Shown here: piece after piece, positions 5,902 through 32,119 of the stretch | Layout: every line of letters starts with the position of its first letter | How positions within the stretch are numbered: the stretch's first letter is position 1 | NCBI GenBank assembly: GCA_945957375.1 | Contig: CAMFKX010000017.1 | Coordinates: 1 to 36,113, forward strand | DNA from: an uncultured Roseiarcus sp. | GTDB taxonomy: Bacteria > Pseudomonadota > Alphaproteobacteria > Rhizobiales > Beijerinckiaceae | DNA: 36,113 bases | Reading direction: 5' to 3' | Translations under genes and position numbers: made by a program | Notes under the pieces: generated by a model | What the model saw: the letters and a program-made list of their open reading frames with translations, nothing else | What the model was told of the DNA's origin: nothing | Databases searched by the model: none

Positions 5902-6837
5902 TTACGGCCGCGGCGCCGCGCTGTTCGCCGTCGCCGACGAAGGCTGCGCGCGCTGCTCGAAGAGCAGCTTCAGGAAGGCGCGCGCCGCAGGCGACAGGCG
6001 CTTCTCCGCGAGATGGACGACGTTCCAGCGGCGCAGGATCGGAAAGCCCTGGACGTCCAGTTCGCGCAACGGTCCGCCGTCCGGATCGAGCGCGAGAACG
6101 TGGCGCGACAGCACCGCGAGGCCGAGCCCGGCGGCGACCGCCTGCTTGATCGTCTCGTCGCTGCCCAGCGTCATGCGCGTCGCCGGGCGGATGGCGTGCT
6201 CGGCGAAGTAGCGCTCCGTCGCCTGCCGCGTTCCCGAACCCGGCTCGCGCAGGATGAAGGTTTCGCGTCCGAGGCGCGCGGGCGGGATCGCCGTCTCCGC
6301 GGCGAGCGGATGATTGGCGGGCGCAAGCACGACGAGGGGATTGTCGGCGAACGGCGTCGCGACGACGCTGAGCCCTTCCGGCGCCTGGCCCATGATCGCG
6401 AAGTCGTCGAGATTGAGCCGCAGCCGCTCGAGGATCTGCTCGCGATTGCCGACCTCGAGCGCGAACTCGACCTCCGGATAGGCGCGGCAGAAGTCGCCGA
6501 TCAGCCGGGTGACGTAATACCGGGCGGTGGTGATCATCGCGACGCTGACCCGGCCGCGCTTCAGGCCGCGCATCTCGGAAAGCTCCATCTTGAGGAGTTC
6601 GAGGCGCTCGAGCACGTCCCGGCTCGCCGCCGCGACCGCCAGCCCCGCGTCGGTGAGATGAAGCCGCTTGCCGACCTGCTCGTGCAGCGGCAGCCCGAGC
6701 CCCTCGGCCAATTGCTTGACCTGAATCGAGAAGGCGGAGGGCGTCACATGCGCCTCCTCGGCCGCGCGGGTCATGCTGCCATGGCGCGCGAGACCGGCGA
6801 CGAGGCGCAACTGATGCAGGGTGACGCGGCGGAGCAT
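5902..6837 (-). CDS. cbbR: LysR-family transcriptional regulator of CBB genes
   Basis: N-terminal HTH (TLHQLRLVAGLARHGSMTRAAEEAHVTPSAFSIQVKQLAEGLGLPL), divergent from cbbL; LysR/CbbR effector domain layout. Confidence 0.92.
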   Translation of the reverse strand: MLRRVTLHQLRLVAGLARHGSMTRAAEEAHVTPSAFSIQVKQLAEGLGLPLHEQVGKRLHLTDAGLAVAAASRDVLERLELLKMELSEMRGLKRGRVSVAMITTARYYVTRLIGDFCRAYPEVEFALEVGNREQILERLRLNLDDFAIMGQAPEGLSVVATPFADNPLVVLAPANHPLAAETAIPPARLGRETFILREPGSGTRQATERYFAEHAIRPATRMTLGSDETIKQAVAAGLGLAVLSRHVLALDPDGGPLRELDVQGFPILRRWNVVHLAEKRLSPAARAFLKLLFEQRAQPSSATANSAAPRP

Positions 6838-22596: not shown

Positions 22597-23595
22597 CTAC
22601 TCGGCGACGCGCAGCAGCTGCTTGCCCTCGTTGCGGCCTTCGAACAGCCGCCGCAGCGTCGCGGGCGCGTTCTCCAGGCCATGCTGGACGTCGACCTTGT
22701 TCTTGAGCTTGCCCGACTGCACCCAGCCCGCAAGCGCGACGATCGCCTCGCCGGCGCGCGGCATGTAGTCGAGCACGATGAAGCCCTCCATCCGCCCGCG
22801 CTGGACGACCAGGTTGAGGTAGTTCTTCGGCCCCGGCGGCGGCTCGGTCGCGTTGTAGTTCGCGATCCCGCCGCACAGCACGATCCGCCCCCGCATCGCG
22901 AGGCGGGCGAGCGCCGCATCGAGAATTTCCCCGCCGACGTTGTCGAAGAAGACGTCGATTCCCTTGGGGCACAGGGCCTTCAGGCGCGCCGGCACGTCCT
23001 CCGCCTTGTAGTCGATCGCCGCGTCGAAGCCGGCTTCGTCGGTCAGCCAGCGGCATTTCTCGGTCCCGCCGGCGATGCCGATCACCCGGCATCCCTTGAT
23101 CTTGGCGATCTGACCGACCAGCGAGCCGGTCGCGCCGGCCGCGCCGGAAACCACGACGGTCTCGCCGGCGACCGGTCGGCCGACGTCGAGCAAGCCGAAA
23201 TAGGCCGTGACGCCGTTCATCCCGAGCGCGCTCATCGCCAGTTCGAGCGGCGCTCCCGGCGGAAGCTTGGTGAGCTGGCCCTTGGCGTTGACCACCATAT
23301 AATCCTGCCAGCCGGTCAAGCCGGACACGATGTCGCCGACCGCGAAGTCGGGATTGTTCGAGGCGACGACTCGGCCGGCGCCGATCGACCGGACCACCTC
23401 GCCGATCTTCACCGCCGGCAGATAGGTGTCCATGGCGATCCAGCCCCGCTGCGTCGGATCGCAAGAGAGCATGATGTTTTGCACCAGCGCCTCGCCTGCG
23501 CTGAGCGCCGGGACCTCGGTTTCGACGAACTGGAAATCGCTGTCCTGGATCGTCCCCTGCGGACGGCGGGCGAGCAGCCATTGGCGGTTCTTCAT
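22597..23595 (-). CDS. NADP-dependent MDR-superfamily oxidoreductase, prostaglandin reductase / leukotriene B4 dehydrogenase / alkenal reductase family
   Basis: NRQWLLARRPQGTIQDSDFQFVE, MLSCDPTQRGWI, ALGMNGVTAYFGLLDVGRPVAGETVVVSGAAGATGSLVGQIAKIKGCRVIGIAGG, FFDNVGGEILDAAL; RBS upstream of 23595. Confidence 0.9.
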   Translation of the reverse strand: MKNRQWLLARRPQGTIQDSDFQFVETEVPALSAGEALVQNIMLSCDPTQRGWIAMDTYLPAVKIGEVVRSIGAGRVVASNNPDFAVGDIVSGLTGWQDYMVVNAKGQLTKLPPGAPLELAMSALGMNGVTAYFGLLDVGRPVAGETVVVSGAAGATGSLVGQIAKIKGCRVIGIAGGTEKCRWLTDEAGFDAAIDYKAEDVPARLKALCPKGIDVFFDNVGGEILDAALARLAMRGRIVLCGGIANYNATEPPPGPKNYLNLVVQRGRMEGFIVLDYMPRAGEAIVALAGWVQSGKLKNKVDVQHGLENAPATLRRLFEGRNEGKQLLRVAE

Positions 23596-23660
23596 GTCGT
23601 TCCTCCCAAGCATTGCGCCGTCTTCCTAACACGGCGCGCGCTTGGCCGCGCGCTTGCGGT

Positions 23661-24776
23661 TTACTCGCCCCATTCCGAGACGTTGCGGTTGTCGTTGTCG
23701 GGAATCGGCGGCGGCAGGCCGAACAGCCGGTAGGACAGCAGCCGGGCCTTGCGGGCGATTTCGCTGTGCGCCCGCAGGTAGTTGAGGGAATTGTAGTCGT
23801 AGATCGAGCTCGCCGGCAGCACGCCGAGCGTCTTCGGCATGTTGTTGACGCTGAAGGTGGTGCGCAGGCTCTCCTTCCAGTCCAGCGTCCGGTCGATGTC
23901 GATGACCGCCAGATCGCGCCACGGGCATAGGCGCTCGTCCCAGACGATCATGTTGTTGAACACCTCGGGATCGTCGTCGTCCTGCGCCTGCCGCGTCTGG
24001 ATCTGCATCCGGTACTTCGCGCCTTCGCGGGCGACCCGGTCCTGGTACTCGTACTTGAGGAAATTCCTGCCGCGCGTCTCGTGGGGAAGCACGCGCTGAT
24101 TGCACTGGTCCCACGCGCTCGGATCGCGCTCGAGGCCGGTCTCGGGTTCGTCGTCGAAGGGCAGCACGCGGTATTTCGCGTAGCGCTTGATGCCGTCGTC
24201 GCCGATGAACAGGAACGGGGTCTTGCAGTAATAGCGGACGTTGTGGAACGAGGTGACGTGCCGACGGCCGGCGTCTTCCGAGCCTTTCAGGCCGTCAGGG
24301 TAGCGGTAGTAGTAGTCCGGGTATTCGACGCCCCATTTCTCCTGCCGGGACTTGGCGAACTTCAGGAAGCTGACCGCGGACCAGAACAGGCTCTGCACGC
24401 CGCTGTTCATCTCGATGTCGAACGGGCTGCGGAGGTGGTCGTCGGAAAACTTGATCGACAGGCTGCGGATGCAGTTCATCGCGTCGTCGAGGAAGGTCGC
24501 CGACGCGTGGCGGATGCGGCAGGGATAGACCTTGCCGGCGGCGAAGAACGGATGCGCGGGGAACTGCGGGTCGTCGACGATGCGAATCGCGCCGCTGCCC
24601 GCGATTCCGTTGTTGTGGCTCATGCGCTGCCGCTTCGGCAGGCAGATGAACAGCACCAGCATCAGGGCGAACAGCTTGGCGTAGAGCCAGAGCTGAGCCT
24701 TGTCGAAGGCCCGGCCGAGCCAGAGCCCGACGAGGTCGGCGAAGGAGAGGGATTCCGTCTTCATGGGCGGGGCCAT
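23661..24776 (-). CDS. Catalase-related heme protein, allene oxide synthase / hydroperoxide-metabolising type
   Basis: Distal-His context CRIRHASATFLDDAMNCIRSLSIKFSDD, Asn context SPFDIEMNSGVQSLFW, proximal Tyr RLLSY (RxxxY, catalase superfamily) near the C-terminus; lacks the full VVHAKG motif of true catalases; start codon directly abuts the lipoxygenase stop (TGAATG). Confidence 0.78.
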   Translation of the reverse strand: MAPPMKTESLSFADLVGLWLGRAFDKAQLWLYAKLFALMLVLFICLPKRQRMSHNNGIAGSGAIRIVDDPQFPAHPFFAAGKVYPCRIRHASATFLDDAMNCIRSLSIKFSDDHLRSPFDIEMNSGVQSLFWSAVSFLKFAKSRQEKWGVEYPDYYYRYPDGLKGSEDAGRRHVTSFHNVRYYCKTPFLFIGDDGIKRYAKYRVLPFDDEPETGLERDPSAWDQCNQRVLPHETRGRNFLKYEYQDRVAREGAKYRMQIQTRQAQDDDDPEVFNNMIVWDERLCPWRDLAVIDIDRTLDWKESLRTTFSVNNMPKTLGVLPASSIYDYNSLNYLRAHSEIARKARLLSYRLFGLPPPIPDNDNRNVSEWGE

Positions 24777-26984
24777 TCAGATGTTGGTCCGGGACTCGAT
24801 CGAGTCGATGTCGACGCCGAGCGCCCTGAACGCCTCGCGCTTCTCCTCAAGCAGGCGGATGAGCAGCGGATTGACGTCGCCTTCCTCGTTGCGGGTGATG
24901 AAGCCGTATTCGGTGCGCGACAGGAAGTTGGTGAAGAACAGCATCTCGGTGCTGCGGGTGAGGTCGGGCGCGATGGCGTCGTCGCTCTCCGGGCCCATGA
25001 CGCCCGACGGGGCGTCGCCGAAGCGCAGGCCGCCGCAGCTGTAGCGCACCTCGCCGAGGTCGTCGTACTGGTGCTCGTTGATCCAGGTGTGCATGTAGGT
25101 GGCCTGCATGATGATGTAGCGGCAGGCGTCCTTGAGGTTGCGCCAGTCGCGCTCGCCGGCTTCGTCCCAGGTGCGCGCGGCGGTGATGCGCGAGACCGCC
25201 TTGAGTTCGCCGTCGACCGTCTCGCGCGGGAGATCGGGATCGAACGCGTATTGCCGCGCGTAGTGCTTCAGCCGTTCGGCCGCGAGCTCGCGATAGCGCG
25301 GGTCGGGCGGCGGGGCGTCGCGAGCGGCGGTGACGAACACCGGCACGCTGTGCGTGACGAGGTCGTCGGCGAAGCGATGGATCTCGCCCCAGTGCGCCTT
25401 GATGCCCGCCTCGTGCTCGGCGAAGAACGCGTCGACATAGGCGCCGAGCACGTCCCAGAACAGGGTCTCGGCCTTGGCGCAGCTGTGCGCTGCGCTGATC
25501 GGCGTCATCGGTCGCCAGCCGCGCCAGTCCTGCACGCCGAGGATGTCGCGCGTGCGCTGCAGTAAGCCCCGGTAGGTGAGCGCCGTCGCGGTCGGGATGT
25601 AACCCCGGATCAGTCCCGAGTCGGCGGTGTGGTCGATCAGCGACACTTCCTTCAGATGCGGCAACAGCAGCCCTGCCACCGGATTGAGGCGCAGGTTGCG
25701 GTAGGCGGCGACAGCGTATTGCTCCGCGTTGAGATGCGTGCCGGAGAAATGCTCCTCGACCTCGGTGCAGAAGGCGCCCGCCACGCGCGCAACGCGCTTG
25801 GCTTGCAGCCAGGCCTCCGGGTCGGCGGCGGTGAACGCGCGGCAGTAAAACGGATCGTCATCGCCGCGGCTGAGGCGCCCGGTCAGGCGGATCTCGACCG
25901 GAAGGGGCAGGCCGTCGTCCTTCAGCCGATAGAGGATCGCGACGTCCGGCAGGGCGTAGACATCGTTGATCTCATACCAGCACACGCCGAAGTAGCGCAT
26001 CCAGAAGTGGCCGGGCCGCGTCTCGTCCGGGACGAAGCAGCCGCGGTTCATGCCGTTCATCATGCGCTCGCCGAACCAGTCGTCGCCGCGCGTGTATCCC
26101 GGGAGGCGGCGCTCGATGCAGCGCGTGAGATTTATGGGATAGTCGGCCTCGATCTCTTCGATCGTCAGCGTGCCGGGGAGGAGGTCGATCTGCTCGAGAT
26201 GTTTGGTCTTGGTGATCTCGATCGGCGTGGCCTGCTCGATCAGCGCGTCGTTGCGGCCCTGCGAATAGATTTCCGGCGTGCCGGCCTGCTCGTCCACGAC
26301 GGCGCGCGGCGTCGTCGCGGCGGGTCGGTAAAGCCAGTAATCGAGCGCGATGGTGCGCAGATTGTAGTCCATGCCGATCAGATCGGACTTGGCAACCGGG
26401 ACGGCGCGAAACAGGTCGAAATGAAAGTGCGGCGCGCCGTCGCGAAAATAGGCGCGCGTCGTCTTCTGGATCTCGAGGTTCAGCGAGCGGATCGACAGCG
26501 CGCGCGCGGCGCGTAACGGAAAGGGCAGGGCGAAGCATCCGTCGGCGTCGGTGCGGCCCTCGGCGATCTTGCGCCAGGCGAGCCAGTAGGTGCGGCCCCA
26601 GAACTCGAGGTGCATGTTGTGAATCGGCGGCCCGTAGCCGCGCTCGGCGGCGAACACGAGCCGCCCGACGAGACGCGAGTCGCGATGGCCCTCCGGAAGC
26701 GCCGGCGACCGCGGAAACAGCTCGTCGAGCAACCGATTCCATCCGTTGCGCAGGCGGCGGAACTGCTCGAACAGCCACTCGATCGTGATCGTGAACGGGC
26801 TGTCGATGATCTTCGACTTGCCGACCTGCATATAGTTGACGCCGCGCAAGCGGGGCCGGAAGAACGTATTCCCCTTCGACGTGTAGCGAATGCGGGTTTC
26901 GCGCAGGCACTCCGCGATGATGGCGCGGGTCGGGTCGGGATCGGCGGCGGCGCGCGGCGTGGTCAGGGGCGGGGGCGCGTTCAT
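24777..26984 (-). CDS. Lipoxygenase-family non-heme iron dioxygenase
   Basis: EEHFSGTHLNAEQYAVAAYRNLRLNPVAGLLLPHLKEVSLID (HxxxxH; LOX-like), ATYMHTWIN (HxxxN) and C-terminal isoleucine (ESRTNI-stop). Starts at ATG 26984 with an ATGA overlap with the upstream gene; the 1194-aa ORF of the track is an N-terminal over-extension. Confidence 0.88.
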   Translation of the reverse strand: MNAPPPLTTPRAAADPDPTRAIIAECLRETRIRYTSKGNTFFRPRLRGVNYMQVGKSKIIDSPFTITIEWLFEQFRRLRNGWNRLLDELFPRSPALPEGHRDSRLVGRLVFAAERGYGPPIHNMHLEFWGRTYWLAWRKIAEGRTDADGCFALPFPLRAARALSIRSLNLEIQKTTRAYFRDGAPHFHFDLFRAVPVAKSDLIGMDYNLRTIALDYWLYRPAATTPRAVVDEQAGTPEIYSQGRNDALIEQATPIEITKTKHLEQIDLLPGTLTIEEIEADYPINLTRCIERRLPGYTRGDDWFGERMMNGMNRGCFVPDETRPGHFWMRYFGVCWYEINDVYALPDVAILYRLKDDGLPLPVEIRLTGRLSRGDDDPFYCRAFTAADPEAWLQAKRVARVAGAFCTEVEEHFSGTHLNAEQYAVAAYRNLRLNPVAGLLLPHLKEVSLIDHTADSGLIRGYIPTATALTYRGLLQRTRDILGVQDWRGWRPMTPISAAHSCAKAETLFWDVLGAYVDAFFAEHEAGIKAHWGEIHRFADDLVTHSVPVFVTAARDAPPPDPRYRELAAERLKHYARQYAFDPDLPRETVDGELKAVSRITAARTWDEAGERDWRNLKDACRYIIMQATYMHTWINEHQYDDLGEVRYSCGGLRFGDAPSGVMGPESDDAIAPDLTRSTEMLFFTNFLSRTEYGFITRNEEGDVNPLLIRLLEEKREAFRALGVDIDSIESRTNI

Positions 26985-29900
26985 GCCGACACCGCCGGTT
27001 CTGCGGCGGTCGCTTGCGTCCTCCCCACGGCCGGTCGGGACGGATCGAGGCGGTCGACGAAGAACATCGCGAGCTTGCCTTTTCCTTTGGCCTCCAGTTC
27101 GCCGCGCGGCGTGAACGCGAAGCGGCCGCCGAGGTAGTCGTGCGTGGCCTGCGAAATGTTCACCTGACCGGCCGCGCCGGACGATTCCATTCGCGCGGCG
27201 GTGTTCACCGTGTCGCCCCAGACGTCGAACTGGAACTTCTTCGTGCCGACGATTCCGGCGACGACCGGCCCGGTATGCACGCCGATACGCATGCCGAAAT
27301 GTGAACCGCCGCGTCGCCTGCGCTCGGCGATGAAGTCGCGCATCTCGAGCGCGGCCTCGACGACGTCGTCGGGATGGGTCGAGTTCGGCACCGGCAGGCC
27401 GCCGACCGCCATGTAGGCGTCGCCGATCGTCTTGATGCGCTCGACGCCGTGTCGGGCGACGATGGCGTCGAAGGCGTTGAAGCACTCGTCGAGCTCCTGC
27501 ACCAGATCGGTCGGGGACAGGGTGGCGGCGAGCTCGGTGAAGCCCTCGAAGTCGGTGAACAGCACGGTCACGCGCTCGTAGGATCGCGCCTCGGCGCGGC
27601 CGGTCCGCTTCAGTTCGTCGGCGGTCTCGGCCGGCAGGATATTGTGCAAGAGGTCGTCGCTGCGCCGCTTCTCGCGGTCGAGTTCGGCGGTGCGCTCGGC
27701 GACCTTCTGCTCGAGCTTGTCGTACAGCATCGCGTTGTCGATCGAGACGGCGATCTGGCCGGAGAGCAGGGTGAGCAGGTCGACCCGTTCGCGCGTGAAC
27801 GCGCCGGGCGCGAGGTTGTTCTCGAGATAGAGCACGCCGACGCTGCGCCCGCGATTCAGGATCGGGACGCAGAGGATCGAGACCGGCCGCTTCTTCAGGA
27901 CATAGGGCTGGGTGCGGCAGCGTTCGTCCGTGGTCGCGTCGGACACGACCAGCGGCTCGCGCGTCCGGTGGACGAACTGGGCGAGCGGAACCGAGAGGTC
28001 GTCGCTGGTCAGCGCGGGAAGGTCCTGCAGCACCTCGATCGTCGCGCCGGCGTCCTCGCCGCGGGCCTGGACCGCAAGCCCCTCCGGCCCGTCGAGCAGG
28101 ATGAAGCCGCGCTGCGCGCCGGCGTTCTCGATCACGATCTCCATCAGCACCGACAGCAGCCGGGCCGGGACGACCTCGCGCGAAATGATCGTCGAGGCCT
28201 TGAGCACGGTGCTGATGTCGAGCACGGCCCCGTTGAGCAGCGACGTGCCGAGATCCAGCGCGCCTTCGCCGGAGGCGAGCGCAGAGGCGTTTTCCCCCTT
28301 CTGCGTGATGTACTTGGGGAAGTGATCCAGGAGGTCGCGGTGCTTGGCCACCGCGCCCCATTCGCGATAGGCGTTATAGGCCGCCTTGAGGTGGAACTCG
28401 GCGAGCACGGGGCGGTCGGTCGCGGCGTAGAAGCGGCCCGCCAGTTCGAAGGCGAGCGCCTCCTCCTGGAGGAACTCGTTCCGTGTCGCCCCGGTGATGG
28501 CGCGGTCGTAGGCGAGCCGCGCGGCGTTGCCGGCGCCGGTCACGCGCGCGTATTCGGCAAGGCAAAGATCGAGCTTGTGGCGGTGGTTGGCCGGCGAGAA
28601 CCGCGCCCAATAGCGCAGCCGCATCATGTCGACCCGCGCGCCGAGCAGCAGCCGCCATCGCTCGGGCCCGGTCTTGTGTTCGGCGAGGGCGATCTTGGCG
28701 AGCGCGTCGTAGAAGCGCAGGTTCGGAATTTCGAACTTGCCGAGAACGGCGTCGAGCAGCTTGCAGGCGGCGGCGGCGTGCTCCTTGGCTTCGGCGAAGC
28801 GGCGGAAATGGTAGCCGAGCACGAGCTTGTTGAAGTGGATGAAGAACGCGCCGGTCTTGTCGCCGCGCTCGCGATTCTGCGCGATCATCCGGTCTTCGTC
28901 GTAGGCCTCGCCGACCAGCCGGACCGGGTCGGCGCTGCGGCCCATCAGGTTGAGCATGCTCTGCCGGAAGACTTCGTTGTAGTTGTAGTTCGTCTCCTGC
29001 TTGAACTGCCGGTAAAGCTCGCTGTAGGCGCGGGTCTCCTCCTCCACCCGCTCGAGCGGCCGGCCGCACAGGAACGAGTGGATGCAGTAGATGTTGGTGT
29101 TGACGCAGGCGAACTCGATCAGGCCGGTTTCGAGGCCGATCTGGAAGGAGTCGCGCAGCGGACCGAGGCTGCCGCGCACGTGCTCGGTCCAGTGGAAGAT
29201 CAGGCCGTAAGGCGGGATGTAGATCTGCGCCTTCCACTCCTTCGCGTTCAGCTTGTCGAGCAGCTCGAGCGCGAGGCGGCCGTACATGGCGCCCTTGCGC
29301 ATCGATCCGAGCACGCCGCACATGATGACCCCGTACGAGCCGTAGGCGAAGCACGAGACCGCGTTGTTGCCGTAGCGCAGCGACAGCCGCACCATGCGGA
29401 AAACGATCAGCGGCAGCAGGTTCGGCCGCCCCCAGTAGACCGAGGAGGTGATGTGCGCGATCGTGCGCATCGCCGCGATCTTGCGTGGGTCGGCCATCTC
29501 CGGCAGCGACATCAGGTCCGCTTCGGAATAGCGGCTGAGCGCGATCTGCGTGGCGACCAGATCGGCGAGGACGTGCGCCATGTTCGGCCGCGCGGGAAAC
29601 TGCTCGCCGAGCTGCGCCAGCACCTCGAGCCCGGTCTCGATGGCGTCGTGGAACCGGTTCTCGGCCTTCAGCGCGAGGATGCGCACCTCGTAGGGCTTCA
29701 CCTTGTCGAGGATGTCGTCGAGCTCCGCGAGCAAGGTCCGGACGCGGGCATCGGTGCGCTGGAACTCGCCGCTGAGATAGGCCGCCTCCGCCGATTCGGT
29801 GTAGAGCTCGCGCATCAGCGCCGGCGCCTCTTTCCACGGCTCGGCGCCGAGCTCGACCAGCGCGATCCCGGTCTCGAAATATTGCAGCGCCGTCGGAAAC

Positions 29901-32119
29901 GCCGAGTTCAGCTTGGCGCGCGCGCCGGCTTTCAGGTTCAGCGCCGCAAGCTCGATCTGCTCGGGCCGTGCGTGGATCGCCGAGCGGCCGCTGTTGAGCT
30001 GGTTGGCGATGTCGAAGATGCGCGCTTCGAGCCCGGCCTCCGGCGTATTGGCGAGCAGGAGACGGCCGATCTCGAGATGCACGGTCGTGCGCTCGGCCTC
30101 GGGAATGAGGGAATAGACCGCCTGCTGCACCCGGTCGTGGCTGAACTTGTAGTTCGTGGCGTCGAGCTGGACGAGGAGCCCCGCGCCGAGCGCGATCTTG
30201 AGAAGCGCCGCCTCCTCCAGCGGGTCGCAGCGACGCAGCACCGACAGCGTGTCGAGGTCGAACCGGCTGCCGATGCACGAGGCGAGCCGCAAGGTCTCCT
30301 GCACCGCCGGGTCGAGGCGGCGCACCTTGGCCGCCATCAGGTCGACGACGTTCTCGGCGATGTTCCTCTGCCCGATCAGCTTCGCGTCCCACCGCCAGCG
30401 CCCGGCGTCGGGGTCGAAGGCGAGGAGACGTTCCGCCGCGAGCGACTTCAGGAACTCGGTGGCGAAGAAGGCGTTGCCGTGGGTCTTCTCCTGGGTCAGC
30501 GCCGCGAGCGGCGCGACGTCCTCGCGCGCGGCGCCGAGGGCGCCGGCGAGCATCGCGCCGAGATCGTCCTCGGTGAGGTTGCCGATGCGGATCAGCTCCG
30601 GCGTCAGACCGGTTTCGCGGATCGCCTCGACGGCGCGGATGAACGGATGCGCCGCGCTGACCTCGTTCTCGCGATAGGCGCACACCAGCATCAGGTGGCC
30701 GCATTCGGGATCGGTCAGCAGCACCTGCAACAGATCGAGCGAAGCGGAATCGGCCCATTGGAGGTCGTCGATGAAGATGACCACCGGATGGGCCGGCGCG
30801 CACAGGGCGCGGACGAACTTGCGGAACAGGTAGTTGAACCGGTTTCGGGATTCTGAGCCGCCGATCTCCGGGATCGGCGGCTGCGGGCCGATGATCAGTT
30901 CGAGGTTCGGCAGCATGTTGGTGATCACGCGCCCCTCGTCGCCGAGCGCGGCGCGCAGGTCGTCCCGCAGCGCGCCGAGCCGCTCTTCGCGCTCGGTCAG
31001 GAAGTCGTCGACCAGGTCCTTGAAGGCCTCGACGAAGGCGACGTAGGGCGTGGCGCGCTGGAACTGGTCGAACTTGCCGGAGCTGAAATAGCCGCGCCGC
31101 GCGGTGATCGGCTTATGCACTTCGTTGACCAGCGAGGTCTTGCCGGTGCCCGAATAGCCGCCGACCAGGACGAGCAAACGGGCGCCGTCCGCGCAGCGGT
31201 TGAAGGCGTCGATGAGCGCGGCGACCTCCGGCTCGCGCCCGTACATGCGGGTCGGCAGGCGAAAGATGGTCGACTGGTCTCTTTCGCCGAGCGGGAACAG
31301 CGGCGCGTCGGGCCCGCTCTCCAGGAAATCCCGGAGACAGCGCTCGAGGTCGTGACGCAGGCCGTCGGCCGACTGGTAGCGGTCGTCGGGGTTCTTCGCG
31401 AGCAGCTTGTCGAACACGGCCGAGAGCGAGGCGGGGACCCTCGGGTTGAGCTGGCGCAGGGGGGTGGGAATCTGGGCGAGGTGCGCGTGCACCATGCCCA
31501 TGGCGTCGGCGGCCTGGAAGGGCAGGGCGCCGGCGAGCACCTCGTAGAAGGTCGCGCCCAACGCGTAGAGGTCGGCGCGGAAGTCGACCGCGCAGTTCAT
31601 CCGGCCGGTCTGCTCCGGCGAGCAATAGGCGAGCGTCGCCTCGATCAACTCGGGGTTGCTGACATAGGGCTGCTTGAGGTCGAAGATCGTCGCGATGCCG
31701 AAGTCGATCAGCCGGACGCGGCGCTCCTGAAGGTCGACCAGGATGTTGTAGGGGCTGACGTCCTTGTGGATGATGTGGTGGCGGTGAATCTCCGAAAGCG
31801 CCCGCGCGGTCGCGATGGCGATGTGCAGCACGTCGACGATGTCGGCGGATTTCTGGCGGAAGGCGGTCTTGAGGTCTTCGCCGTCCACCCACTCCATCTC
31901 GATGACGTGGCGATTGTTCTCGCGGGTCTTGCGCAGCGCCGCCCGGATCTCCGGCAGCGCGAGCCCGCTGATGATGTCGAACTCGTTGTGAAACTGCGCG
32001 ATGTCGACCGGGGTCGGAAACTCGTAGTTGAGCACCTTGACGGCCGTGACTGCCCCCGAAGCGTCCTGGCGGCGAAAGACCTTCGATTTCTTGCTCTCGT
32101 AGATCAGGCGGTCAGCCAT
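26981..32119 (-). CDS. Multidomain signalling protein: kinase-like, AAA ATPase, helical/TPR-like, GAF and class III adenylate/guanylate cyclase domains (1712 aa)
   Basis: Kinase-like HKDVSPYNILVD..LIDFGIAT; Walker A GGYSGTGKTS and Walker B VVIFIDDLQWAD; GAF RPVSILCVPILNRGRSVGVLYLEN; cyclase VLFTDFEGFTELA..RIKTIGDAYMAVGG..FDVWGDTVNTAARMES. Confidence 0.92.
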   Translation of the reverse strand: MADRLIYESKKSKVFRRQDASGAVTAVKVLNYEFPTPVDIAQFHNEFDIISGLALPEIRAALRKTRENNRHVIEMEWVDGEDLKTAFRQKSADIVDVLHIAIATARALSEIHRHHIIHKDVSPYNILVDLQERRVRLIDFGIATIFDLKQPYVSNPELIEATLAYCSPEQTGRMNCAVDFRADLYALGATFYEVLAGALPFQAADAMGMVHAHLAQIPTPLRQLNPRVPASLSAVFDKLLAKNPDDRYQSADGLRHDLERCLRDFLESGPDAPLFPLGERDQSTIFRLPTRMYGREPEVAALIDAFNRCADGARLLVLVGGYSGTGKTSLVNEVHKPITARRGYFSSGKFDQFQRATPYVAFVEAFKDLVDDFLTEREERLGALRDDLRAALGDEGRVITNMLPNLELIIGPQPPIPEIGGSESRNRFNYLFRKFVRALCAPAHPVVIFIDDLQWADSASLDLLQVLLTDPECGHLMLVCAYRENEVSAAHPFIRAVEAIRETGLTPELIRIGNLTEDDLGAMLAGALGAAREDVAPLAALTQEKTHGNAFFATEFLKSLAAERLLAFDPDAGRWRWDAKLIGQRNIAENVVDLMAAKVRRLDPAVQETLRLASCIGSRFDLDTLSVLRRCDPLEEAALLKIALGAGLLVQLDATNYKFSHDRVQQAVYSLIPEAERTTVHLEIGRLLLANTPEAGLEARIFDIANQLNSGRSAIHARPEQIELAALNLKAGARAKLNSAFPTALQYFETGIALVELGAEPWKEAPALMRELYTESAEAAYLSGEFQRTDARVRTLLAELDDILDKVKPYEVRILALKAENRFHDAIETGLEVLAQLGEQFPARPNMAHVLADLVATQIALSRYSEADLMSLPEMADPRKIAAMRTIAHITSSVYWGRPNLLPLIVFRMVRLSLRYGNNAVSCFAYGSYGVIMCGVLGSMRKGAMYGRLALELLDKLNAKEWKAQIYIPPYGLIFHWTEHVRGSLGPLRDSFQIGLETGLIEFACVNTNIYCIHSFLCGRPLERVEEETRAYSELYRQFKQETNYNYNEVFRQSMLNLMGRSADPVRLVGEAYDEDRMIAQNRERGDKTGAFFIHFNKLVLGYHFRRFAEAKEHAAAACKLLDAVLGKFEIPNLRFYDALAKIALAEHKTGPERWRLLLGARVDMMRLRYWARFSPANHRHKLDLCLAEYARVTGAGNAARLAYDRAITGATRNEFLQEEALAFELAGRFYAATDRPVLAEFHLKAAYNAYREWGAVAKHRDLLDHFPKYITQKGENASALASGEGALDLGTSLLNGAVLDISTVLKASTIISREVVPARLLSVLMEIVIENAGAQRGFILLDGPEGLAVQARGEDAGATIEVLQDLPALTSDDLSVPLAQFVHRTREPLVVSDATTDERCRTQPYVLKKRPVSILCVPILNRGRSVGVLYLENNLAPGAFTRERVDLLTLLSGQIAVSIDNAMLYDKLEQKVAERTAELDREKRRSDDLLHNILPAETADELKRTGRAEARSYERVTVLFTDFEGFTELAATLSPTDLVQELDECFNAFDAIVARHGVERIKTIGDAYMAVGGLPVPNSTHPDDVVEAALEMRDFIAERRRRGGSHFGMRIGVHTGPVVAGIVGTKKFQFDVWGDTVNTAARMESSGAAGQVNISQATHDYLGGRFAFTPRGELEAKGKGKLAMFFVDRLDPSRPAVGRTQATAAEPAVSA

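Follow-up and report, generated by a model that had tools for sequence, protein, structure and literature searches.

The window analysed here, a stretch of 36,113 nucleotides from an uncultured Roseiarcus sp. (contig CAMFKX010000017.1), raises the question of what a bacterial relative of coral allene oxide synthase (AOS) might do when it lacks the proximal tyrosine and is encoded beside a lipoxygenase and a multidomain kinase/cyclase. The role of this Tyr in heme catalases is held to be essential (PMC9687031); a clade that has lost it but retains the remainder of the pocket would show the catalase fold working either with no Tyr at all or with another ligand. The genes concerned, and one segment of the AOS-like protein, are the following:

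26981..32119, minus strand: KIN, a Ser/Thr kinase - AAA_16 - GAF - class III cyclase protein of 1712 aa (Pfam)
24777..26984, minus strand: lipoxygenase (LOX) of 735 aa with H-x4-H, H-x3-N and the C-terminal Ile intact (match to 5ek8, E=4e-100)
23661..24776, minus strand: Tyr-less catalase-fold protein of 371 aa, like coral AOS (open reading frame; phmmer match to coral AOS, E=4e-53; Foldseek match to 1u5u)
24642..24743, minus strand: N-terminal hydrophobic helix of the AOS-like protein, residues 12-45, a probable membrane anchor (AlphaFold helix; hydropathy)
22597..23613, minus strand: CurA/PTGR1-like NADP reductase, 48 bp downstream (NCBIfam matches below cut-off)

Among solved structures, significant phmmer matches to the AOS-like protein are confined to the coral AOS 1u5u and the AOS-LOX fusion 3dy5 (E=5e-52), and the homology extends across the catalase-fold domain, with the match to the coral enzyme (cAOS) spanning residues 28-336. 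An AlphaFold model prepared with 14 relatives as input (mean pLDDT 77, pTM 0.80, falling below 50 in the distal loop, residues 52-55) recovered 1u5u first in a Foldseek search (E=6e-28, TM 0.77) and catalases next. The partner lipoxygenase expected of a cAOS, fused or adjacent, is here the adjacent LOX. Two attributes of monofunctional heme catalases are missing: there is no Pfam match at E<=1, the catalase family PF00199 included (NCBIfam models likewise failed to recognize the protein), and there is no proximal Tyr. A separate match to the Pfam catalase family is encoded elsewhere in the same genome (C84:243-1205; a 409-codon open frame). The open reading frame, strand, length of about 371 aa and neighboring lipoxygenase given in the initial annotation are all borne out, and its assignment to the coral AOS type stands as a placement of the protein on the cAOS branch of the catalase fold; AOS activity, however, cannot be assumed, since no member of the bacterial clade that covers the site has the proximal iron-ligand Tyr. 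The kinase/cyclase protein had escaped that annotation altogether, and its link to the AOS-like gene is as conserved as that of the lipoxygenase.

The heme-pocket residues of cAOS (R64, R102 and R360; distal H67, T66 and N137; proximal Y353; PMC5617202) were transferred to the AOS-like protein by alignment, which places their counterparts as follows:

24597..24626, minus strand: the true distal motif RMSHNNGIAG (R51-M-S53-H54-N-N-G-I-A-G), corresponding to cAOS R64, T66 and H67 (alignment)
24501..24512, minus strand: RHAS, in which R89 corresponds to the cAOS heme Arg102 (alignment and PMC5617202)
24405..24407, minus strand: N124, in MNSG, corresponding to the cAOS distal Asn137 (alignment and PMC5617202)
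23742..23774, minus strand: proximal helix R335-A-H-S-E339-...-R345, retaining the counterparts of Arg349 and Arg360 (alignment)
23730..23744, minus strand: RLLSY (R345-Y349), beginning at the Arg360 counterpart R345 (alignment)

This map redraws several landmarks of the first reading of the sequence. The Asn of FDIEMNSG had been picked out correctly, being equivalent to N137. RHAS had been taken for the distal motif, but it holds the Arg102 counterpart, and the distal His is H54 of RMSHNNGIAG; the latter (24626-24597) is the altered counterpart of the catalase RVVHAKGAGA, so that the VVHAKGAGA motif reported as lacking is changed rather than absent. RLLSY, proposed as the proximal motif, starts at the Arg360 counterpart, whereas the position of the coral Tyr353 is occupied by Glu339, in a helix shorter by one residue (R-x9-R versus R-x10-R in coral). 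The claim that catalase-superfamily landmarks are kept thus fails for the most important of them, the proximal iron-ligand Tyr.

Relatives were gathered by a contig scan of genomes, which gave 14 loci, and by whole-genome searches that supplied more; 22 Tyr-less sequences were collected, and 21 of these include the Tyr353 site. Not one of the 21 has Tyr there (E in 15, D in two, and V, I, G or H in the others), whereas all four homologues outside the clade do, namely coral AOS, a plasmid protein of strain NGR234 and the proteins of loci L053 and L071. A tree holding three of these four (L071 was excluded as incomplete) splits the Tyr-less clade from the Tyr-bearing homologues with 100/99 support, on long outgroup branches. 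Elsewhere in the pocket, the counterparts of T66, H67, R102, N137, R349 and R360 are each a single residue in 21/21, with Thr66 replaced by Ser (S53) throughout, and that of R64 is Arg in 19 and Lys in two. Around H54, residues M52, S53 and N56 never vary within the clade, and none of the Tyr-bearing proteins has them. H337, part of an HS[ED] motif in the close clade, was considered as a new His ligand, yet only 13 of the 21 carry it.

The clade also differs from the coral and NGR234 proteins at the N-terminus. In the window protein the best 19-residue Kyte-Doolittle mean is 2.17, and every clade relative with an intact N-terminus has a comparable run (best 19-residue means of 1.16-2.46), which is absent from the coral (-0.16) and NGR234 (-0.64) proteins; where the helix lies, the coral protein has a segment that is not hydrophobic. 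The hydrophobic N-terminus noticed at the outset is therefore a conserved trait of the clade by hydropathy, and the AOS-like protein is probably membrane-associated through it.

The gene-neighborhoods supply the functional context. In the window, the KIN stop and LOX start overlap as ATGA, the LOX stop abuts the AOS-like start (TGA|ATG), and the block does not stand out from the contig in GC or GC3. The full three-gene set recurs at 18 loci in Alphaproteobacteria and Bacteroidota, ordered KIN-LOX-AOS in 15, LOX-AOS-KIN in two and KIN-AOS-LOX in one, and the distance matrices of the three proteins correlate (r=0.88-0.91). The genes are linked in different phyla and passed on as a set. Conservation is highest in the AOS-like protein, whose mean identity is 57% against 51% for KIN and 48% for LOX and whose dN/dS is 0.05 (L004/L005) and 0.12 (L004/L006); judging by these values, the gene is not decaying and the clade is under strong purifying selection. 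The LOX iron ligands (H/H/H/N/Ile) are kept in 18/18 loci, the window LOX passing the PF00305 cut-off (24.9 bits against 23.6), and the kinase and cyclase catalytic motifs of the window KIN are intact. At L050 (10385-15682) and L051 (3627-8852), the kinase-AAA-GAF protein ends in a His kinase in place of the cyclase; hence, the input part stays while the output changes. The reductase at 22597-23613 was weighed as a fourth member; a relative lies near the block only at L072, where it is divergent and differently placed, and the gene probably falls outside the core set. CurA/PTGR1-type enzymes reduce enones.

The recurrence of the set at 18 loci in three orders, its overlapping or abutting junctions in the window, the correlated distances, the conservation, the catalase fold, the invariant or nearly invariant pocket counterparts other than Tyr353, the intact LOX ligands and signaling motifs and the output swap lead us to propose that the three genes constitute a single oxylipin signaling module, a reading to which we assign a probability of about 0.47. 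The AOS-like protein would most likely be its membrane-anchored hydroperoxide-handling component: LOX would make a fatty-acid hydroperoxide, which would enter a cAOS-like pocket of the membrane-located AOS-like protein, there to be either converted (to an allene oxide, a lyase product or some other rearranged product) or retained, and the kinase/cyclase protein would report or control the output. Least certain in this scheme is the heme, which might be held by the conserved arginines with its axial ligation shifted from the lost Tyr, perhaps to the invariant H54, the most plausible replacement, amid its clade-specific flanks M52, S53 and N56.

What becomes of the heme also separates this proposal from its strongest rival, under which the protein would be a heme-free pseudoenzyme whose pocket binds the hydroperoxide or its product, relaying the signal to the kinase/cyclase as a receptor or adaptor bound to the membrane. 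The loss of Tyr in 21/21 sequences and the variability of the site would favor heme loss, as no iron-ligand candidate is conserved proximally. Moreover, the link to the kinase can persist where no catalytic LOX is nearby: at L015 and L016 the AOS-like gene adjoins a kinase/AAA gene (on the opposite strand at L016) on contigs devoid of LOX, and at L052 (6809-8323) the AOS-like protein, next to a kinase/cyclase gene, is fused to the non-catalytic N-terminal domain of LOX, the catalytic domain having been lost. Divergent members from Planctomycetota and Competibacteraceae retain the kinase without a lipoxygenase. Thus, hydroperoxide chemistry need not be the sole role of the protein. Set against this, the invariant arginines and distal residues would favor heme retention; invariance of the R102, R360, H67 and N137 counterparts is hard to explain in a pseudoenzyme unless they have acquired a new role, and we regard this alternative as less likely than the main proposal.

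A further possibility, that of an ordinary cAOS-type heme enzyme whose iron ligand is Tyr349 of RLLSY, one helical stretch further on, is improbable. R345-LLS-Y349 does resemble the R-xxx-Y pattern, and the Tyr is present in 17/21; however, residue 349 is I, L or S at L050, L051, L068 and L015, and the coral helix aligns with the stretch that starts at DYNSL and runs past R335 as far as R345, which is already the Arg360 counterpart. Still less credit attaches to a peroxide-detoxifying catalase or peroxidase belonging to a lipoxygenase operon: the catalase fold is in its favor, but PF00199, whose cut-off the Tyr-bearing L053 relative passes, gives no match at E<=1, the nearest relative is cAOS, itself reported to be unable to scavenge H2O2 (PMC5617202), and the proximal Tyr is missing. 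That the gene is a decaying cAOS remnant carried along with its neighbors, as the lost active-site Tyr and one degenerate copy with internal stops (L014) might suggest, is scarcely tenable for the best-conserved gene of the three, with dN/dS of 0.05-0.12 and retention across phyla.

Returning to the proposed oxylipin module, its parts have precedents. With the AOS-LOX of the coral Plexaura homomalla (1u5u/3dy5) the system shares the fold, the distal His and Asn, the heme arginines and a partner lipoxygenase, at about 35-38% identity; unlike the coral protein, the window version is encoded by a separate gene, has no proximal Tyr and a helix one residue shorter, and adds the hydrophobic N-terminal helix and the kinase/cyclase partner. 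The catalase-LOX fusions of the cyanobacteria Anabaena and Acaryochloris (PMC11719350) likewise pair a bacterial catalase-related protein with a lipoxygenase. In those the two are fused, whereas the window genes are separate, the likeness being drawn from their description. We know of no kinase/cyclase link for these fusions. KIN itself resembles the cyanobacterial dual kinases cbSTKIII/HstK (PMC2176072) and the TOMM kinase/cyclase fusions (TIGR03903) in that one chain carries a Ser/Thr kinase and GAF along with a His kinase or cyclase output, and differs from them in being coupled to LOX and AOS-like genes; against the TIGR03903 model it scores 183, below the NCBIfam cut-off of 705.75. The closest solved relative of the window LOX, 5ek8, has the same iron ligands and a Gly at the predicted stereocontrol site, where the window LOX has Ala. 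By the general pattern among lipoxygenases, this Ala would be predicted to give S products; 5ek8 is, we take it, CspLOX2 of Cyanothece. Product data for CspLOX2 are given in PMC11719350.

With the role of bacterial lipoxygenases largely open, a LOX-linked module of this kind is of interest, and the conserved pairing with LOX and a kinase/cyclase offers a concrete, testable case for oxylipin signaling inside bacteria. The Tyr-less AOS relative and its three-gene set point to an unstudied bacterial lipid-signaling system; searches of openly licensed papers gave no report of the module or of Tyr-less members, which is weak evidence of absence. More tentatively, one may envisage a lipid-mediator system spanning bacterial phyla, in which a kinase/cyclase or His-kinase sensor would be driven by an oxylipin that LOX and a membrane-anchored catalase-fold protein produce or perceive. 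The heme ligation of this catalase-fold protein would have moved or been abolished, and the whole would form an eicosanoid-like circuit with a new catalase-fold active site.

Distribution of the AOS-like gene is sparse: it occurs in one of 398 genomes of the window's own order (that of the window itself), in 0/10 congeners, and at a frequency of a few per cent in those Bacteroidota families that were searched. A search for LOX in plasmids and phages found nothing. The carriers are mostly metagenome assemblies, with incomplete or degenerate copies at L013, L017, L007 and L014. As the records of Algoriphagus sp. CAU 1675 and Indibacter alkaliphilus LW1 are isolate-named and not metagenomic, cultures of these two carriers probably exist.

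The Tyr-bearing relatives, unlike the Tyr-less clade, adjoin lipases or hydrolases and oxygenases. At L053 (539-4376), which came from the planctomycete search, a Tyr-bearing AOS, a class-3 lipase and a lipoxygenase lie side by side in what is, by its predicted gene content, an unfused coral-like pathway, and at L071 a Tyr-bearing AOS accompanies a LOX and an alpha/beta hydrolase. The NGR234 gene (L002:6034-6936), on the symbiotic plasmid pNGR234a (NC_000914.2), neighbors a catalase CDS, a di-heme peroxidase and a patatin-like phospholipase. This gene is annotated too short, with its start at 6241, and other Sinorhizobium plasmids (L003) carry truncated remnants of it.
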